This document shows positions 37,027 to 55,900 of a stretch of 64,000 bases of DNA, piece after piece. The DNA is taken from positions 4,469,501-4,533,500 of the forward strand of contig OX344762.1 in NCBI GenBank assembly GCA_947034895.1, given 5' to 3'. The position numbers were made by a program, and so were the translations under genes. Numbering within the stretch: the stretch's first letter is position 1; each line of letters begins with the position of its first letter. This stretch comes from Rhytidiadelphus loreus (lineage: Eukaryota > Streptophyta > Bryopsida > Hypnales > Hylocomiaceae). The notes beneath the pieces were generated by a model. The model had not been told where the DNA came from. It saw nothing but the letters and a program-made list of their open reading frames with translations, and made no database searches.

Positions 37027-38487
37027 TTAACGAGGAATGGGTTGAGAGAATATTTGAGCAGCATTTTCTACGCTTTGTTGGGAGAGATTGCTCCTAAATC
37101 CCCAATTGTCTAACCTAGCTGGAGTAGGAGTGATTGGTGATGTAATAAAAGGAGATGAGAAGGTTCTAGTAGCTGCGCGGGCACTTTGGACAGATACAAT
37201 CATTGAAGCTGCAATGGGTTGGGCCTCAAAACCATCCTGTTGCAAAGGGGAATTGACTATGGGAAACACTTGATTTTGCCGAAAACGGTCTACCGTCATT
37301 TTCTAAATTGCCTTGTAGGCTCATGCATTGTCTCGTTTCTCTACTGAGCTGGATTGTGATGGAAGGCGATTATGTTGAGACTCCCGAAACAAGGTTAAAG
37401 AGGGCATCCTATGTTCCACCAGTGAGAATGAGATGGCACAGGGGGCCAAAGAAATCGACTAGAAATCTCTTGGGTTTCTACCTGCTACGTTGATTGGTGA
37501 AAATTGCATATTTTTGGCATCTTCAAAGGCTTCTTCTTCAACTGGAGAGGGATCATGGTTAAAGTCTTGCACGAATTTGTCAACAACTTCATCTATAAAT
37601 GAGAAGCGTGTACCTTGGTTGCCGCTGATGCCAAGTAGTTCTAGTGTAATATTGGCTGGCTCAGTTGAGACATTGTGAATAATTTGCAATGACTGAAAAG
37701 CTTGGATAACAATCGGATTGTTTGAATTACTTGGAGAACTCAAACTGTCCGGAAGGAGGTCTGCATCATGTATGTCAATGCTCGGCCTACCTGGAGGTTG
37801 GATCTGACTCTTGACCATGTTGCTCGACCTACCAAGGCACTGGGTCGAGTACTGATTGTTGCTGCCGGCATTACCTTGGATAACAAGTAAGTTCTGGTCA
37901 CTAACATGTGGATTGCCTAAAAATTGAGATGAGGTTTGATCTATACATGTATTAGAAGGCAAAGTGTCAATGGTCTGACTAACCATACCTAGAGTGTCAA
38001 TATTTGAAGTGATGATATTTTCGGCCGGACTTTCTGCATGCCCTATGTGACTAGTTGAACATATATTGTGAACATTAGAATGTTCTGTTGGTTGCGGCAA
38101 AATATCTTCAACGGCAATTATATCTCTTGTGGTATTCCTCAGCTGCAAGTTGTTCAAGGCATCATGTTCTTCCGCCAAGTGTTGCATATAATGTTCGATC
38201 TCTTCTTCGAGTTCCATATCAGTGACATTCACAGTTGAAGGCTCATCGACAATATCTGAAATGTGTAGTGGATTGTCAGCTAGAGTCAAGGGAAGAGCAA
38301 AAGGGAGATTTTCAATTACTGAAGCACCTTGGTTGGATGAGTCATGTTGACAATGTTGATGGGTTGCAGTTGCCGGTGGTCGCAAATGTTGGAAAGGGAA
38401 AGGCAGAGATGACATCTGCGGAGAAGAAAGCTGTGACATTTGGACTGAAAATATTGAGGATTCCGATGAAGCTGAGTCAATAGTCAA
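37027..38487 (-). pseudogene. LINE ORF1, C-terminal linker remnant
   Basis: One minus-strand frame runs from 38487 to a stop at 37459-37461 and continues in the same frame at 37299 to a stop at 37027-37029. It is low-complexity, rich in Ser, Asn, Pro and Gln. That suits the long linker that follows the zinc knuckle in plant LINE ORF1 proteins, but no CCHC motif or N-terminal domain is present. Its final TAA overlaps the ATG of ORF2 (TAATG), a common arrangement in LINEs. Identity rests mainly on position; alone it would be unrecognisable. Confidence 0.65.
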
Positions 38488-38507
38488 GTGCTAAGATGGC
38501 CATGTTT

Positions 38508-38928: not shown

Positions 38929-39662
38929 TTAACCCCTCACCACCCAAGGGGCTCAAAAGTGTCCTCATAAAGTTTTATGTCCAATTCAAAGTACTACAAC
39001 TTTTGCATCCAATGTCCAAATTAAATAAAACTTGTTGGGAAATTTTTACCTTTTCTTCTGTTTTGTTTGGTAAAATTTTTAGATCAATCAAAGAGGTAAT
39101 GATTTTTTGGAAGCCAATCAAAGTTCACAAGTTCAATTTGATTCACCAAAGTGCAATTCATAGCTGCAACTTCAGGGATTGTATCTCCTTCATCCAATGT
39201 TTGATTTCAATAAAAATTTGTTGGGGTTGTATTACCCTTGAAGTCTAGTTATTGTGCAAAATTTTCATGTCAATCCAAGTTGTTTTGAATGTTTAGGAGC
39301 AATTCAAAATTCAAAATCCCACCATTCTTGGACTATAGTGAACTTTGGCGGCTTGTATCTTCTTCATACAATGTCCGTTTCCAATAACTTTTATTGGAAA
39401 AGTTGCGCATACTAGTCTAGTTTGTATGGCTAAAATTCCATATCAATACAAGAAGTTATGAATTACTGAGAAGCATTTTAGTAGAAGGAGGTTTAGCCTT
39501 GTCTCAATTTTCTGCAACTTTTCTTGCATATTTTTTGACATTTGCAAGCATTAGAAGAAAGTTGGACCCAAGAAGGGGCTGCCTCAATGCAAGGAAGGTG
39601 GGCAAACATAACAGAAATAAACTCACCATTGTTGAGTGCTGGACTAATGATGACCAGTTGGG

Positions 39663-39935
39663 TAGTTGAGTGATGCTGGATTAGATGAATATGATTGGAC
39701 GATGAACTACCCCCTTGAGGAGGTGCCCGCTTACGTGGTGGCCCAGAAGTCCGCTAAAGCAGTCGTGGCTGCCCCATTTGGCGAGATGATGACTTGTACC
39801 TATATTCCAATTGGCGGGGGGGGTTGTAATCTTATGATCAACGGATTCTTGAAACTTCTTCTCGGACTATTTTTTGGCGGGCACAGGTATGAATTGATGC
39901 ATCGAAGGATTGAGCAAGCTGCTCTGATTTGAGCT
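39663..39935 (+). other. Unassigned open stretch in the TTAA element
   Basis: An 88-codon frame (39666-39932) preceded directly by a stop. It has a GC content higher than its surroundings and reads DEYDWTMNYPLEEVPAYVV, then a Gly-rich run and a hydrophobic part. The sequence just upstream in another frame reads VECWTNDDQLGS, which also looks coding. It may be a decayed extra exon of the element. No domain was recognised. Confidence 0.3.
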
Positions 39936-40099
39936 CGATCAACGCAGTGCGAGTAGTAAGGTAAGAATTTTTTGAACTTTGCAGCTTGATTGTTTTTGTG
40001 CATCTTTAAATCTAGTCTCTAAGGTGGTATTATATTTGGATTCAAATTCTTTGGGTTTGAATTTCTGTAGAATTGTTCTGTATTCACTCCCTTCCAGTA

Positions 40100-40520
40100 C
40101 TATGGAATTTAGATGCTTGCAACTTTTCTTATGAATGGTAGTTGTGTTAGTTGGCTCTGATTGATCAATGCAAGAGAAATTTGAGACTAGTGCAAGTGAG
40201 AAGAGAATTTTCTAAGGTTTCAAGCAAGCAATGAATGAAAGTTTAGTGGGAGTGTATACCTGTTGAATTCATAAATGGCAATTGTGTTAGTTAACTCTGA
40301 TCGGAATGGCGGATTTAAGATCAGTGCAAACGAAAAGATGATTGCCTAAGGTTTCAAGCAAGCATGCTAGAAAATTCAGGTAGAGTGAGGATTTGGGTAC
40401 CTTCTTATACAAGGGAAAGGGTGTGCCTGAAATTGCTTGTAACTATTGATCAATCACCTCCAGTATCAAAGAATTTAGATGCCTGCAACTTAGATCATGA
40501 ATGACATTCATATTAGTAGA
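40100..40520. repeat. Imperfect repeats upstream of the transposase-like gene
   Basis: ATGGYARTTGTGTTAGTTRR with CTCTGAT after it occurs near 40136 and 40276. AAGGTTTCAAGCAAGCA occurs near 40216 and 40350. A GGAATTTAGATGCTTGCAAC-like phrase occurs near 40105 and again near 40469. These look like diverged copies of a unit of roughly 140-180 bp, possibly a leader or subterminal repeat of the transposon. Confidence 0.5.
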
Positions 40521-40641
40521 TCAAGTAGGCCAACGAGTAACAATTTGTTAGATTCTTGAGTCTTCTAAGATATTTGTATTTTCATTTCTAATTCTGTAAA
40601 GTTGGTGCTATCCTGGGTACTAAATTTTTGAGAGTTTGTGT

Positions 40642-43600
40642 ATGGCACCCGAGAACTGAAGCACGGCTCTTAGGACGAATGTGTCACTCTATAAGGCGCA
40701 GGCCTCAATTGATTCAAAATATGCACCTGTAATTCAGCGTGGCAAGTTGCTCCATGAGCAACCATCGAGGTCTACTTTTGCAGCAAAGAGAAAGGCAGGA
40801 GATACTAATATAGACCTCTGGCTTGATGGAAGTATATATCCACTTGATCATCATACTGGGAAACATCCGAAATTTGATTCCCTAAAAAGTTTGCTGGAGT
40901 TTGTAGGGGATGGTGAGAGTAGCTTATTTGGATACGTGCAAAGGCTACATTCACAGAGCTTAGAGAGTGTGCGGTTAGAATTTCGAGAGGAGATAGTAGC
41001 CTTGAGAGAGCAAGCTCAACAGCTACAAATACAGATAGATTTGTAACGAATTCAATTGCAAGATGCATCGTTCTTCCAGAACGAGATCAAAATGCTACAG
41101 TCAGAGAAGAGTTTATTAGAAGAGCGCTTGAGTACTCTGCAAATGGAGGTTCATGTTGGATATGCTGAGAAGTTGGCCAGTGATTTGGAGCTTGAGGTTG
41201 CACAGCAGAACAGTGAATTAGCACAACAAAATTTGGTCACAGGTCATGGATTAGAAGTGCAGTCGATCAAGGCACAACTTTCAAAATCCAAGGCCGAATT
41301 GAACCGTCTTGTCATGAAATTCAACAAACTAAGGAAGACACCATATGGCTATCGCATGCAAGTTAGGCCACGTTGAGACTTGAGCAAACTAAAGCAGTCT
41401 AGAGGACATGCAAAGGCACAGAAGAGATTGGCCAGGTGCTTAGTGGGGCCAGAGACCGTGAGGAAAGTTCAAGAGAGGAATGCAAATGAAGGACGATCAT
41501 CTCGATTGTATGGTGATACAGAATCGCAAGTTGCAAGTGGTCAATTGTTTGGTAGTTTACTATCCAAAACAGAGATGTCGGCTATGTTAGAAACCCCAAG
41601 AATGACATTTGCCGAGAAGAAGATGATCAACTATTACTTGGACAAAATAGGTGCAAATGTTGGTCCTGAAAAAATATTAGAGACATGCGACAGAAATGGA
41701 GTCACATCTGATGGGTACAGTGCAATTTACAAAAAATTCAAGGGCGCAGTACAAGCGGCTGGAAAGGGAATTCGACTTGGGTGTTTGCCAAACCCTTATC
41801 AGATTTCAAAGCTGAGAAGGGAGATGAATGGGAATCTCAAAGACTTGATTGGCGAGTACTACAGCATTAATGACACTCTAATTCTTCCCGGTACAAAATC
41901 AAAGGAGTCGACAAAAGTTACATTGAGTAGTAAGAACTCTTTCTTCGTCGATGTGGAAGCAGTTCAGAGAACCATGGTGGCACTTTACGGATTCACCCCA
42001 GAAGGTAATTGCTACATCCAATTCAATTGCATTGCATTATAAATAAGTCATGCAATCGATCTAGAATGGATACAGATACTTTGATAAATTCTTGGGCTCT
42101 TCACGTAAGGGTGTTTCTGTTTCAATAGAATGACTAGTGTTTCTGTGCTTAAGCGGGCTTTGGATAAGCTGACCCTGATCACATCAACCAATTGACGACC
42201 CTGAATCCAATCGATCAGCTACTCAGCTAATTTCAAAACTCTAGGACCCTGAATCACATTGATACAAGCAAACCGATGTTATGGTACTTGATTGCATGAT
42301 CAGCTAATCAGCTAATTTCAAAACTCTAGGATCCTGAATCACATTGATTGCATGAGGTAGAACTATTAGGGTGACAATTTTAACCTCTACATGCACTGGT
42401 GTTTTTTTCAGAGTTACATGGCCATCCCTTGATATTTGTCCTGAAATTAGACGAGGCGGAAATAGTCCATGGACAAAAGTTAGAACGTGTGTCCATCACC
42501 ATTATGAATCGTGCCTTGGACAGAGATATTGAGAAAAACAGTCCTCGCTATTTCTCGGTGCAGTCTGAACGGGAGATCTGGCTAGTAGCAAGCTTCGAAG
42601 TACCAAAAGAATCTTATGAGGTGTTGTCTTGGGTGTTCAATAAATCAACGATTCCAGACTTGATATCTGCCCAGGAGGATGGACAACTACTACAAGTACT
42701 AGACATCGGCGAATTCAAAGTGCAGTGGCACTTAGCAACGGATATGAAAACCATTAAGGTAATGTATGGTCTAAAGCATGGAACAAATACGTTACATACA
42801 TGCATTTATTGCATGCAAGAACGAACTAAACCAATTGTAACAACCACTGCCCAAGCGATGCTAACAATGAGTAAGCGCACAAGCTCCTGGAGTGGCGGCC
42901 TTTTCTCCAACTGCATCCACGCTAAACCAATTCTGGGTGCACGGGGTCAGGGTAGATGGAAGCCCATTCTACAAATCCCCATGGATAGAGTTCATATATG
43001 TACACTTCATGCTCTAAACCGTATAGTGGAAAAGATACTTCACCTCTACTTCATGTACATTTGGACCATTCGGGATAAGATCCAACAAAAACAAGCAGTA
43101 GACTCAATGCAGACAGTATTATCTTCTACAGGGGCACATGGCGGAAACGTGCAAATATTCAAGGACAACGACCTCTCTGGGAAATCAAACAACGTGCCTA
43201 ACAAGCCTTTGCTTAGTGGAGCTAACTGCTCGAAGATATTTAAGGCAAGTCCCCTGCTTGGAGGATCTGACAAGTTGTGGAGAGACATCGTGAATTCGTC
43301 ACGCAACTTTCAAGACGGAGGAATTGCTAGAAGGACACAGCTGGACATGTGGGGAGGATTGGATGACTTAAGATTGTACTTCACAAAGCTAACTCTCGAT
43401 GACAACAAAGTGCACCAATTTAAAGATAAGGTAGAAGCTTGGGGACGATTATTTGTGCACTGTTTTGGTGAACATCATGTTACACAATACTTGGTATGTT
43501 TTCTAACCTTCCTCCTATAACAAAGATAGACATGATGAAAGTTCAAGAGAGGAATGGTACACTTGTGGGTATCCTAATTGTTGAATTAAGATTAACTGAA

Positions 43601-44253
43601 CTTCATGATAGTAAACATATTAGACGAATAACATATTCAGTTTATATATAATGCACACATTGATCCTTATGCAGAAATGAAATTAAAAAAACTGAAGTAT
43701 TCAAGACATGCCTTGGTTTGTAGAATTCTTATTGAATTCTTCATGAATTTGACCACTCGTATTTGAACTGTAACAGCATGTTATAGTTCGACATGCATGT
43801 TGGTTTGTTAACGAGTATGGATCCCTAGCCGTGTGGTCATGCCAAGGCATGGAGAAATCTCACCATGCGGCCAAAGCAGCCTATCACCGCCATACTCAAC
43901 ATGCAGGAGGAAAATTTTGAAATAGTCCTTTATTACAGGTTTACGAACACTGGTACCGCATAATCCAGCATTGTTTCAAAAATAAAAGTTTACACGATAG
44001 TGAGGAATTTCCTGACTTGAACGGTGATGCTGCTGTTCAAGCTAGGCGTGAGCGATCAATATCCTCTAGTGCTGCCGCCCATCATGCTGCATGGCGAGAA
44101 ACTTGTACTCGTCAGGGATCACGGTGGGTTCCAAACTCTGAAGATGTGAGTGAAGATCCAACAATGATAGATCAAGCTGCAACAAATTCTGATGGATACG
44201 AAGCAATGGCAGACTTAGAGGAATATGAAGCAACTTCAGACTTTGAAAACTAG
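40642..44253 (+). pseudogene. DDE-transposase-like gene of the TTAA element, three exons, three in-frame stops
   Basis: Exons 40642-42004, 42412-43493 and 43939-44253 join in frame (2760 bases, 920 codons); donors are GTAATT and GTATGT, acceptors TTTTTTTCAG and TATTACAG. The start ATG 40642 is followed in the same frame by stops at 40657-40659 (TGA), 41044-41046 (TAA) and 41374-41376 (TGA). The N-terminal part is Gln/Glu/Leu-rich and likely coiled coil (residues about 95-230). Exon 2 has KLDEAEIVHG, then ATDMKTIKVMYGLKHG directly before CIYC, then IPMDRVHICTLHALNRIVEK. The paired Asp blocks followed by a Cys pair recall DDE transposases with an inserted zinc ribbon; the assignment is inference. 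The C-terminus is acidic. The spacing is too well kept for chance, so decay is recent. Confidence 0.7.
42213..42348. repeat. 51-bp direct repeat in intron 1 of the transposase-like gene
   Basis: 42213-42263 and 42298-42348 are nearly identical (GATCAGCTAMTCAGCTAATT, then TTCAAAACTCTAGGAYCCTG). The copies are offset by 85 bp. Confidence 0.85.
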
Positions 44254-45010
44254 AATATCAGGGGTCCCTGGAATGCATCCCTGGACGTGTGTCCCAGTAT
44301 CTTCAGTCGAAGATCGTCCTTCTAGTAAATTCAACGACCTGTGCTAGGACCATTGTCTCAGAACATTACCAACACCATAGTCATTATACCCATCAAGTTC
44401 TGATTTATACCCATCAGATTCTGATTGTTGAATTACCAAAAGGAGCCTGAAGATGTCCAATCTGAAAATTCAATATCTAATCTATATTAGACTTGATATC
44501 TAATCTTGATCTGATTTTCTCTATTGTTTTCTCCCCAGGCCACCTGAGGCTGGGGCTTTGTACCTCCTTCCTTGCAATGAAATTCCGTTTCATTTTTGTC
44601 AAAAAAAAAATCCTGATCTCATCCTACTGTGAACTTGCTCCTGGCTTTCTGAGCACTTATTGTTGCCGTTTTTTGCGCTTACTGCTGTCATTTCTGATTG
44701 TCAGGACAACACAACTGGATTATTCGATCAACACAAAAGAAATCGAAATAGTCAAGGCTAAGAAACTTCAGACTTTTACAAACCTGCAGAAGACCTTTAA
44801 GACTATAGTTTTGATCAGAGTTGAGTGTCTTACCTACATCAATTAACTTGAAAGAATTCGAATCCGTTTTGGTGGTAGGACATCAGCAAAGGTGAAATTT
44901 CTTTCATTACGTTGATTCACCTATCACATGCAACTCACTGTTTAGAGTTTATTTGATGTGCAACAGAGGCAACATAGCATAACTAGAATTAGGCAGTAAA
45001 AAAATCAAGT
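44254..45010. other. Intergenic part between the two transposon genes
   Basis: A 3'-3' intergenic stretch. The 117-codon frame at 44493-44846 has no recognisable content, and an A-run interrupts its neighbourhood near 44600. Confidence 0.5.
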
Positions 45011-46525
45011 TCATACCTTTGTGGATGCTTGGCCATCTTGAACAATCCACATACGGAAATCTGTTGGGCAATCTGTACCCAATATAATGGTTATCTCTTG
45101 GCGCACATTTGATAACAACCAGTTTCTCCCTACTTCAATATCAGTTTGCCCATCTCCATATTCGCATGTTATGAATACAACATCAATAGGACCAATTTGA
45201 TCTATTTGTTGCCATTGATTGTTAGGTTGGAGACGCTCACGGTTGAACTGGAAATTTGCATATAATGTAGACCTACCGATTTGGAATTTGAAAACAAGTG
45301 AACTCCGATCCACTACACATTTAATAACATCGGCTCCTGTAGTGATTTTGTAATCCCAGCCTTCGTCCATTAGAGATGACATTAACTTCCCTGTCACATT
45401 TTTGAAAACAAAGAAAGTACTAGTTTGACGGATACTCTCAGCACACGAAAAAAGATCAACCATCACCGTTATAGGCATAAACCACTGTAAGTGTGTTTGT
45501 CGGCTGCCTGTTGTGGGTTTCATTGACGTTCTAAAATCCAATCGCATTTTTGCTCTGAAAGACTCGGTGGTTGCCATATCGGGGAGCGGCCACAATGGAT
45601 CGTCAAAGTTTGGTAACGGAATTGGCTCAAGACGACCATGTGTTTGGTTACCTATTTTAGGATAGTAGAACGCGTTGTAAAAGTACAAACTATCACGTAG
45701 GAGTTCTCTATCACTACGGCCTCCTCGATAAGGTTCACCTACCTCTGCATGAACTACCGTGATTATCCCCAATAAGCTTTTGGCATCAACCCAATCAACA
45801 TACTCCGAAAGATATAGATCTGTCCCAAAAAATCAACAATATGTTAATAATTTATTCAAGACTAAAATTACAATACAGTTTGCCAAAGCTTCAAATTGCA
45901 ATACAATGCATGACTAACTAATACCTTCAAATTATGAGAAAAGTTTAAGGACGCCCTAGTAAGCTCTATTATGAGGCAGAGATGAAAATCACAGTTCCCC
46001 TGGATCTTTAACTTAAAAACATCGAGCTTTGCTAAAGAATGACAAAACTGCACTCAGCACTTGTACTAAAATTGAAACTGCCTTGGACCAGGGCTATCAA
46101 ACCATTTCCCACAACCATTTGGATTCGTGGCTTCCAATTAAAACTAGCATACTCCATATTTAACAACAATTATAAAGAAGATTGAACCCATTTACAGTCA
46201 ATGAAAGATTGAACTTACAATTTGCACCTCCCATCAGCAATGGAGCTTGCGGATCCAACTCGAGCTACCTGAACATGTAAGCATGTTGGACTTTAACTTC
46301 AGAGACAACATTAGAATTAGAAGTGAAGCAAAATTGTAATATTTTGGCCTTATAGGCACCCTCAATCGAATTGCCTCCATGCCTGACTGCATCCCGTGCG
46401 TATCCTCCTCTTCTTCCAGGCGTAAGAATAACCTAGGAATTTATCTCAAACCGAGTTGGAACCCATTCCCCTGCTTCACCCTCAATATAAAGAATCACAG
46501 ATTGAACACTTGATCGGGGCCTCAT
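45011..46525 (-). pseudogene. Second gene of the TTAA element, unknown function, two exons, two in-frame stops
   Basis: Exon 1 is 46525-46219 (ATG at 46523-46525) and exon 2 is 45819-45011. The donor is GTAAGT, the acceptor is GGGACAG, and the phase agrees (one base plus two). The joined frame is 372 codons including the final TGA, and it has TAG at 46433-46435 (codon 31) and 46265-46267 (codon 87). The protein has no membrane segment. Readable parts are SVILYIEGEAGEWVPTRFEI, RRGGYARDAVRHGG, LPDMATTESFRAKMRLDF, FMPITVMVDLF and CEYGDGQTDIEVGRNWL. I recognise no family. The final codons AAG-GTATGA could be a further donor. It faces the transposase-like gene tail to tail within the same ends, so an accessory role in transposition is inferred. 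Confidence 0.65.
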
Positions 46526-47331
46526 TCTGACAGCGTGAGATCAAAGAGAAGAAGAATTGACATAATAAAAAGATCGAACTTGGCTCATCGGAAGGTTGAT
46601 TCAAAACTGGCGCGAGGGGCAAACAAACTCAAGTACAAAAGCTTGATTACTTGGAAGGGAACGAGTTCAAAAACAGGAGGGAACAAGCTCCTACTGATCT
46701 TGAAGAAGATGTATAGACGAGCTTGTACATCTAACGGGCAAATAGCCATCAACGTGTCAAGCTCTGAGTGATCCCAAGGACGCACGAAAGAGAAACGTAA
46801 GGCCAGTCATGATGGCCCACACGCCATGGACCACTCACAGACCACTTGCAGACCACTCACTCGCCTCAATGCCTATGTGGACAGCCATACTTTTGGGACG
46901 GGCACGCTCCAATAGTGATTAAAATAGTAAGAATTCTGACAGTCACTTTGAGGGTCCAACTTTATCCTAATGCTATTTTGCAAACACATTGAGTCAATTG
47001 AATGATATCTTTTTTTCACCAATGTGTTTGTATGCTGGTTTTGAATCACTTTATAGTTTAAAGTTTTATCATTTGATTAGGTTTAGAAACCAAATTTCGC
47101 CTCTAAATGTGTTTTTAGGAAAATTTCAGCATTCTTTTTCAACACTAAAACATTATAATCTCTCAATCTGTGCGGTCAAATGACTTCAAATTTGATAGAC
47201 ACCATTTACAACATACACACTACAAAATTTTATGGTTAAGATCTCTATATCTTAGTAACATTTAGATCTATATCACTTCAAAAGCAATGATGTTTTTGAA
47301 CCCAAAACAGCCTTGGGCGGTGAAGGGTTAA

Positions 47332-52961: not shown

Positions 52962-55900
52962 TCATGTGCGGCCTGGGATGATTCTGTCACGCTTGTCAAA
53001 GTTTAGCTTGCGGGAGGATTGAATCCACGAGGGACCGTCGATGAAATCCATGTTCAGAAACTGCTGCACATCGTCATCGTTGAGCTCATACGACCACGGC
53101 ACTCGAACTGCTCGCTCGGCACCAGGACCGGAGCACTTGTATTGCGCGTAAAACGAAGTGCTGCAAACAACACAGGAATGCAATCGCAACGTTACACACG
53201 AGGCAATTCAAGGTCTGGAGGACATCTTTGTGTGGTTGGTGGTTAGAAAGTTCACTTCTGGGATCGCTTGGCTTGCTGGAATTGACTTGTTCTTCACTGA
53301 TGTCAAATGGAGCAATGAGATAATTTCAGCATGCTATGTGGTTTCATATGTTGGATTCTGTGAGGATGGCTTTTCACAAGGCCTTAAACCAGGCAAAAGA
53401 AAAGACTTAATGATAACCAGGACATCTTGGACTTGTTCGTCCACAGGTTATCAGACTTCTAACCGAGGCTTCAGTTGCTGTAAGAGAGTGAACGTAGGCG
53501 CGCATTTGATTCTTAATTTGAACAGGCTTCTAATTAATGGTTTTTGTGTAATGTCATTGTGTTCTTTTGACTAGCAAGAGCTCTGGCTCCACCTCGCATT
53601 GATTTGTAGTGCGTCACAGTAGTAGCTTTCATTGTCGCTTCACGTTCAACGTTGTCTGAATGCTTGCAATGTTGAAATGGTAAGCTCAACAGACAAAGAG
53701 AGGGGGCTTGAAACCCATCTTCTTTTAATTTTCTAATTAGAGGAAACGGAGCCTCCACCTTTGAAAGCATGACGACAAGCCTCTAATCCAAAAGCAAACG
53801 ACCGGTTTCAACGAAAAAAACTGTGACAACTTCCAACTTTGGAACAGTTATCGAAAAATGCGAGTGCCACAAAGCCAAGTTCTGTCCAACAATGGAAGTC
53901 GTTACTACTTCCATCGTTGGAATAAATCTTCCTGAGTGTTGAATGTGTAATATACAAACAGAAGGCAAAGCAAGAAGGCAAGGAGAGAAGCTCTTGACAG
54001 AGAACGGCGCACGGAATCGATCCTGCAAACTAGACTTACTTGTGGACCGTGGAGTCGCCGAAGTCGGTCCATCCAGCAGGGATGATTATGTCGTCCATGA
54101 AGGTGCGCACAAACACCACGCGCGACGACGAGCCCCACGCGCGCCCCAGCCACACCAGCCCATGACCCATGATGGTGCAGTCCAGGAAAACGAAGCCCGA
54201 CTGGTCTTCCGGCCGCGCCCGCGCTTGCGCCGTAATGGACCCCGTCGTCTCCGCTATCACATGAATCTCGCAGCCCTGCAGGGCTCCACTCTACATTAAG
54301 TACATTCCAATCAATTTATCAATCAATTCATCAATACGTATCCTCCGATTTAGTATTTCATTACAACAGGAAGTAAGCCTAGCAGTTGCAACACAACATC
54401 AATTACTTTGCAATGGTCTTTTGTAGCGGTTCCGTACTTTGCGAAAAAACTTATGGCCTACTGCGAACCATTGTGAAAGTGCTGCAAACTTGTTGCAAAA
54501 GTCTTGGGCACGGAACCAATGCACATTTATGCCTAAACTGTGAGCAAAAACTACTGCAACCTCAAATAGTTGCAATGTACCTCCGATTTAGTATTTCACT
54601 ACAACAGGAAGTAAGCTTAGCAGTTGCAACACATCATCAATTACTTTGCAATGGTCTTTTGTAGCGGTTCCGTACTTTGCTCGAAACTTATGGTCTATTG
54701 CGAACCATTGCTAAAGTGCTACAGACTAGTTGCAAAAGTACGTCTTGAGCATGGAACCGATGCATATCTATGCCTAGACTGTTGCAAAAACTATTGCAAT
54801 CTCAAATAGTTGCAAATACATTGCAGATGGACTAACCCACTGCAAAATGGATAATAGATTTCTGAAGGTCATTGCACAGCCACTACCAAAACTATCGCAA
54901 TATCAGCCTTCGGTACTAGTATTTGCAGTAATACAAGATTAATTGCAGGTGGAGCACTCACGGACCTCGTAAAGAGATCGGCCATCGCCGAAGATGAAGT
55001 CGATGGAGCCTTCGATGAAGCAGTTCTTGAAGTAGTGGCGACCCGCGTAGTCGAATAGCGTGTCTTGCGCGCCATAGAATCCGCAATCGTAGAACGCAGC
55101 CTTGTCGCCGCAGATGACCAACGCCACGGCTTGTTTGCCCATCTCCCCGGGTTCCGGCATTGGAGCTGTATTCTGCAAGAGCCCATAGACATGGACTCAA
55201 TCAGCAACCCTAGTCGTGAAGAGCATGCATTCATCGCCGCTACTTCAATCAACAGATTCATGGTGCAGTTAGGGTTTACCTTGAATCCCATGTCCATTGC
55301 TGTGAAGTGGTCGGCGTAGATGGCAACCGTGGCACTGCCTTCAGTTCCACTTTGGGCGGCCGTGTCGTTGCCGATGATGATGGTGGCGTTCATCCCCGCT
55401 CCTTGCATTGTGATATGCGGCTTGTTGCTCGGGATGAGCACCTTCTCTCTGCAATCATGTCGACGAGGAAGCTCAATCGTTTGAAATCGAAGGAAACTAA
55501 TGTTGAGACTACACTGCCCACTCATAAAATGCGGCGCTGAGGGATGGAGGGGAGGGATTGTACGGAGCTTGAGAAGATCGCAATAATTGTAACCGTTTCA
55601 AGGCTTTCAAACTCTTTGTAATCCCTCCCCGTATCCCTCAGCACCGCATTCTAGAAGCGACTCCACAATTGAACATTCTTGAAAGTTCGCACAAAATTTT
55701 CCAACTGATATAGGTTGCTGCGAAGAACTCTTCAATTCTTGAAAGCTCGTGATAGTTATTGAGACTATGTGCTTCTGTTTAGTGCTAATTTTAGGTTTCA
55801 CATTTCAGATGATGGTGTGGAGTTTACTTTTAGGTTTACTTACCTGAAACATTTTGCTCTTTTTGGTTTAAGAGTCGATTCAAGGACTCACTCATAAATG

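Follow-up and report, generated by a model that had tools for sequence, protein, structure and literature searches.

RAG1, the enzyme that cuts antibody genes, made adaptive immunity possible together with RAG2, whose PHD finger binds nucleosomes. The RAGL (ProtoRAG) transposons, which have CAC ends and 5-bp target-site duplications (TSDs), carry two usually convergent genes, RAG1L and RAG2L, while Transib elements have one gene and likewise 5-bp TSDs (PMC7204232). A C(2)C and H(3–4)H motif is common to RAG1, Transib, EnSpm, and Lanisha, the last being a superfamily proposed within the CMCT clade (Maumus, McDaniel and Carey 2020, Repbase Reports 20:2521, via PMC12730594), for whose members TSDs of 2–5 bp are described (PMC12730594). 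Plants have been reported to contain Transib-like proteins (PMC9435367). We analyzed a stretch of 64,000 nucleotides from the moss Rhytidiadelphus loreus, hereafter the window, and found there a nested insertion, in which a ~0.97-kb repeat flanked by TTAA is split by a 7.4-kb transposon with two convergent genes. The inserted element is quite likely a separate cut-and-paste transposon with a RAG1-like transposase, which seems to make no target duplication and carries its second gene, here called the partner, as a putative accessory.

The nesting is established by other copies of the outer repeat. Queried with its first 368 bp, the genome that contains the window (407 Mb) has 40 scored matches to the 5′ end among 2380 first-look candidates, at 88–100% identity, so that this TTAA/CCC repeat looks very common. 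In the seven non-window copies examined in detail (L002–L008), the match to window positions 38933–39552 runs in every case directly into about 46970–47327, ending at 47318 in L004, and the joined flanks of the insertion (300 + 300 bp) give alignments of 88–92% that span the junction. The empty site of these relatives reads ATTTGCAAG followed by CTATTTTGC, L002 carrying a single substitution; in the window, CATTAG follows the first half and CTAATG precedes the second, and the empty site joins exactly. A reading made from the sequence only had taken the whole for one 8.4-kb TTAA-specific transposon, and the features on which it relied are real: TTAA stands directly outside both 38933 and 47327, and the outer ends, beginning CCC, match as inverted repeats at 15/17 positions. 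Its proposal to look for further copies with the same ends did yield TTAA-ended copies, but the internal 7.4 kb is absent from all seven, which assigns the TTAA ends and the genes to two separate elements.

L002, L006, and L007 begin at TTAA-CCCC with unrelated flanks. A pattern check located the 5′ motif of the repeat in six of the seven copies, preceded by TTAA in five and by TAAA in L004, with no match in L008, and its 3′ motif in three, followed by TTAA in L002 and L005 and by TTAG in L006. The ends of the outer repeat are piggyBac-like, with a TTAA target and CCC termini. Kolobok elements also produce TTAA duplications (PMC9587614), an addition to the piggyBac and Sola3 superfamilies listed in the sequence-only reading; their termini are 5′-RR..YY-3′ (PMC9587614), whereas those of the outer repeat are CCC..GGG. 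A Kolobok with a KolX partner had been considered on account of the TTAA and was dropped once the TTAA was separated from the genes.

The inserted transposon is 7,424 bp long and bounded by a 21-bp terminal inverted repeat matching at 19/21 positions. The same CATTAG...CTAATG ends are present in every element read at both ends, namely the window copy, one copy of a family B (C2:51485340-51495926, beginning CATTAG), and 11 copies of a family A. A further subfamily (L085, L088) has the CATTAG left end, its right end not being reached within about 14 kb. The outermost C and G are present in all gene-bearing element ends read, and CAT in all 8 ends listed. Sister copies starting at TTAA were also considered, and no TTAA end pair was found in L051+L052 or L053+L054.

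The window transposon is a member of a large two-gene family, in which the genes usually lie tail-to-tail. The core exon of the transposase has at least 114 matches in the genome and the main exon of the partner at least 155 (150 listed); both counts are lower bounds, and the pairing uses the listed coordinates. The nearest partner lies downstream, on the opposite strand and within 25 kb, at 84 of 112 merged transposase loci; the remainder comprise 7 with a divergent partner, 1 whose partner shares its strand, and 20 lacking a partner within 25 kb. Random positions gave a mean of 1.9 tail-to-tail pairs out of 114 and a maximum of 6 in 200 trials, and from this difference we conclude that the two genes travel together. 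At the seven divergent loci (C2:14527766, C2:73106603, C4:25432911, C2:16032300, and three others), the nearest partner is upstream on the opposite strand, head-to-head; some subfamilies may have a flipped gene order, unless the true pair was missed. At C2:3382983-3462827, four partner matches (3382983, 3410246, 3437395, and 3462093) are spaced 25–27 kb apart, and 3 kb from two of them lies a transposase match (3407246 and 3434395), a pattern that suggests tandem duplication of an element plus its surroundings.

Family A, whose reference copy spans 10.2 kb at C5:22490646-22500854, appears from its sequences to have moved recently. All 40 scored matches to its left 300 bp start at its first base: 24 are printed as 100% identical, of which 19 have the full score and 5 a score one step below it, and the other 16 reach 72–77%. 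The in-frame stop of the reference copy is missing from all 10 sister copies examined.

Thirteen insertions with both flanks (the window, copies A and B, and 10 further family A copies) were compared for target duplication. With CATTAG taken as the end, the flanks match over 1 bp in 6 insertions, over 2 bp in 1, and over 3 bp or more in none, against means of 3.9, 0.9, and 0.3 in shuffled pairings of the same flanks. No TSD thus rises above chance across the 13 insertions, none of which has a 5-bp duplication, and in the window nothing is duplicated under these ends. The gene-bearing transposon therefore seems to insert without target duplication. Absence of TSDs has also been described for Spy elements of the PHIS superfamily, which differ in preferring AAATTT and in belonging with PIF/Harbinger (PMC4482050); no AAATTT is present at the 13 insertions. 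A scan of the window for CATTAGRRGRRAAR gave 24 occurrences against 19.8 expected, no excess over chance.

Both genes of the window copy persist as convergent remnants: the tail-to-tail spliced frames described from the sequence alone are present, with frames broken by in-frame stops. Stops at 41044, 41374, and 43918 interrupt the transposase frame ahead of its terminal stop, and the partner has two in its first exon; judged by these, the window copy is a dead relic. In the transposase, the proposed splice 42004/42412 is in phase. The second one, joining 43493 to 43939, is incorrect: it skips the exon with the catalytic Glu, the last, which begins at 43777. The assignment to DDE-type transposases is upheld, and so is the Cys pair downstream of the second Asp: CIYC and HVIVRH precede QGME in the window copy, and the same pattern is found in the homologs P0030 and P0033 and in families A and B.

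Neither protein could be attached to a named family in Pfam or NCBIfam. Pfam scans of the exons and homologs returned weak matches below cutoff, mostly coiled-coil or unrelated, and NCBIfam gave the same result; Transposase_21 (PF02992) was not matched in the Pfam scans run with limits of 10 and 5, whose filters drop very weak matches, and Rfam at gathering scores had no match in the window. The resemblance to RAG1 lies in the block around the catalytic Glu. This block aligns gap-free to RAG1 in family A (VTHYMHNLVRHGPWYVETYGSLAVWNNQGME) and in the window, and with one gap in P0030. The scores against RAG1 are 72 for family A, 63 for family B, 59 for the window, and 54 each for P0030 and P0033, with shuffle means of 21.5–23.0; of 2000 shuffles each, none reached the score of A, B, or the window and one reached that of P0030 and of P0033. 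For the four sequences tested against both, z values are 7.2 to 11.1 against RAG1, compared with −1.4 to 0.0 against the equivalent block of L087, a single CACTA element of the same genome, and the L087 block itself does not score above shuffles against RAG1. The RAG1 letters used closely match PDB chains; an earlier CACTA control (z −0.6 to 0.5), made with open frames lacking a matching block, is not relied on. The predicted fold of a transposase homolog, moreover, matches RAG1, ProtoRAG, and Transib. Block and fold prediction together support a position of the transposase on the RAG1/Transib side of the CMCT transposons.

The partner had been reported to resemble nothing recognized, and indeed no Pfam family matches it. 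Its C terminus is a ubiquitin-like domain, and its N terminus is probably a BAH-like domain. No Kelch or PHD match was obtained in Pfam, the N-terminal half of its model being mostly of low confidence.

These elements suggest how the transposon could work. By analogy with RAG1-type enzymes, binding of the transposase to the CATTAG ends would be followed by excision of the element; the transposase would then, as the missing duplication implies, make its two joins directly opposite each other on the target, to give a blunt insertion. The simplest view of the tight gene linkage is that the partner serves as an accessory subunit binding DNA or chromatin; its BAH-like domain might contact nucleosomes, as the RAG2 PHD finger does, and its ubiquitin-like domain other proteins. 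This chemistry, the function of the partner, and any current activity of the family are inferences, whereas the gene linkage is shown.

Several results weigh against this account. RAG1 was not found by whole-protein searches with the single sequence P0030 or with profile A2, which barely holds the Glu exon, and a PDB sequence search with one exon found nothing; a profile comparison with RAG1 gave only 4% probability (hhalign, E-value 0.009), with the second Asp and the Cys pair in register. The match of the predicted fold stops before the Glu, in a region of low confidence. The BAH assignment has an E-value of 0.034, BAH is absent from the Pfam scans of the partner, and a comparison with the ORC1 BAH domain gave 0.4% probability, though the expected stretch was aligned. 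Twenty of the 112 transposase loci stand without a partner within 25 kb. The exact empty site was seen for one insertion, that of the window; at the other 12, target bases may have been lost.

One rival is a hidden target duplication, of 1–2 bp or masked by a deletion at insertion. One-bp matches occur in 6 of the 13 insertions, and the window can be read as a GC duplication around ATTAG...CTAAT ends. Yet 273 of 2000 shuffles reach six 1-bp matches, and 2-bp matches number 1 in 13 under either reading of the ends. The ATTAG reading gives a 2-bp match in the window and a 3-bp match in L061, each at shuffle level, and it would leave out the C and G present at all ends read. We regard a hidden duplication as unlikely. 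That both genes belong to a single TTAA-specific transposon of piggyBac, Kolobok, or Sola3 type is scarcely credible, whatever the flanking TTAA and the 15/17 inverted ends may suggest, given the uninterrupted copies of the outer repeat and the other gene-bearing copies read, which have CATTAG ends and no TTAA there.

The rivals that accept a separate gene-bearing element concern its class. A true Transib or RAGL transposon that reached plants would explain the RAG1-type fold, the Asp-Asp-Glu residues with C(2)C and H(4)H, the similarity of the Glu block, and the convergent two-gene layout of most RAGL elements (PMC7204232). It is nonetheless improbable, as the ends are CATTAG instead of CAC, the 5-bp TSD is missing (compare PMC7204232), the sequence is too distant for whole-protein searches, and the partner has no Kelch or PHD match in Pfam. 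RAGL elements differ from the window family also in that its host is a plant, and Transib differs additionally in having one gene. The element could instead be EnSpm/CACTA-like, its likeness to RAG1 arising since only RAG1, RAGL, and Transib have solved structures among the relatives. The CA..TG ends and the C(2)C and H(4)H motifs are indeed common to the whole CMCT group (PMC12730594), and EnSpm/CACTA elements are abundant in the same genome. We give this view a slim chance, because the Glu block rises far above shuffles with RAG1 but not with the one CACTA block, and Transposase_21 is not matched; the TSDs of 2–5 bp described in the clade (PMC12730594) are a further difference. CACTA transposases (PF02992) yielded 150 scored matches of 676 candidates in this genome, and most listed frames are stop-free within the match.

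Of the features by which Kojima (2025, PMC12730594) delimits CMCT transposons, the window family shows the Cys/His motif and the CA..TG ends and lacks a TSD above shuffle level. On the strength of its transposase we therefore place it near CMCT, without classing it as a Transib, RAGL, or EnSpm element. It probably represents a poorly described plant group, as had been proposed, though not a TTAA-specific one. A literature search for a description of it returned Lanisha as the only candidate name. The window family may be Lanisha, with which it has the C(2)C and H(3–4)H motif in common, the two being set side by side by description rather than by Lanisha sequences; two of the Lanisha authors work on the moss Ceratodon, the source of the only partner homolog with an organism name. 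Should the identity hold, comparison with the Lanisha description would turn on the affinity to RAG1, the second gene, and the absence of a TSD.

We advance only tentatively that this is a plant RAG-like system, in which a recently active RAG1-fold transposase with blunt insertion has its own chromatin-reading partner, with BAH and ubiquitin-like domains, independent of RAG2. Such a system, in a plant lineage alive today, would be a second, parallel invention of the RAG1–RAG2 arrangement. What made a RAG1-type enzyme depend on a partner that reads chromatin is a standing question, for which a plant family with the same convergent plan and an unrelated-looking partner offers an independent comparison. 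Insertion by a RAG1-type enzyme with no target duplication would in addition probe what fixes the spacing of strand transfer, and the 24 family A copies with a near-identical left end indicate that recently mobile material may exist.

Table 1. Features of the nested insertion, in window coordinates
Feature	Position	Strand	Evidence
Outer ~0.97-kb TTAA/CCC non-autonomous element, left part (616 bp)	38933–39548	+	TTAA at 38929–38932; joined flanks align across the junction to L002–L008; TTAA-CCCC starts with unrelated flanks
Outer TTAA/CCC element, right part (355 bp)	46973–47327	+	TTAA at 47328–47331; continuous with left part in 7/7 other copies examined
Two-gene transposon, CATTAG...CTAATG	39549–46972	+	Empty site in relatives; terminal inverted repeat
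Left terminal inverted repeat CATTAGAAGAAAGTTGGACCC	39549–39569	+	CATTAG start shared by three further subfamilies
Right terminal inverted repeat CATTAGGATAAAGTTGGACCC	46952–46972	−	End comparison
Transposase exon 1, N-terminal region containing a coiled coil	40660–42004	+	tblastn with P0045 and P0036 across stops; in-frame stops 41044 and 41374; start codon provisional
Transposase exon 2, catalytic core	42412–43493	+	114 genome matches; homologs P0001–P0050
Exon 2 landmarks: first Asp (KLDE); second Asp (TDMK); C(2)C; CTLH	42450–42452; 42741–42743; from 42801		
Transposase last exon, H(4)H and catalytic Glu (QGMEKSH, Glu 43852–43854)	43777–44253	+	tblastn with P0030/P0033; acceptor CAG 43774–43776; stop at 43918
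Partner exon 1, N-terminal half of the probable BAH-like region	46219–46525	−	tblastn with P0053/P0064; two in-frame stops; splice in phase with exon 2
Partner exon 2, remaining part of the probable BAH-like region, middle region, first part of ubiquitin-like domain	45017–45819	−	155 genome matches (150 listed); homologs P0051–P0079; splice sites
Partner last exon, end of ubiquitin-like domain to stop	44843–44920	−	tblastn with P0053/P0056/P0064; AG acceptor and stop

Relatives with an organism name outside this genome come from Ceratodon (P0053, the only such partner homolog) and from the fern Adiantum nelumboides (transposase pieces); taken by themselves, they point to a land plant, probably a moss, as host. 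Pattern scans of viral contigs and of one-per-species prokaryote contigs matched 37 and 77 stretches, respectively, with no relative among them. The Adiantum gene models P0088, P0089, P0092, and P0093 hold transposase pieces beside other sequence, and precomputed annotation gives a histone domain (PF00125) in P0092 and PF00854 and PF07690 in P0093; they could reflect capture or a prediction artefact. Within the window, an open frame of 343 amino acids with no Pfam match at E 0.01 lies on the minus strand just left of the TTAA element (37462–38490), and a pectinesterase-like frame (PF01095, E-value 2.4e-8) on the minus strand at 54872–55597 is probably part of a host gene.

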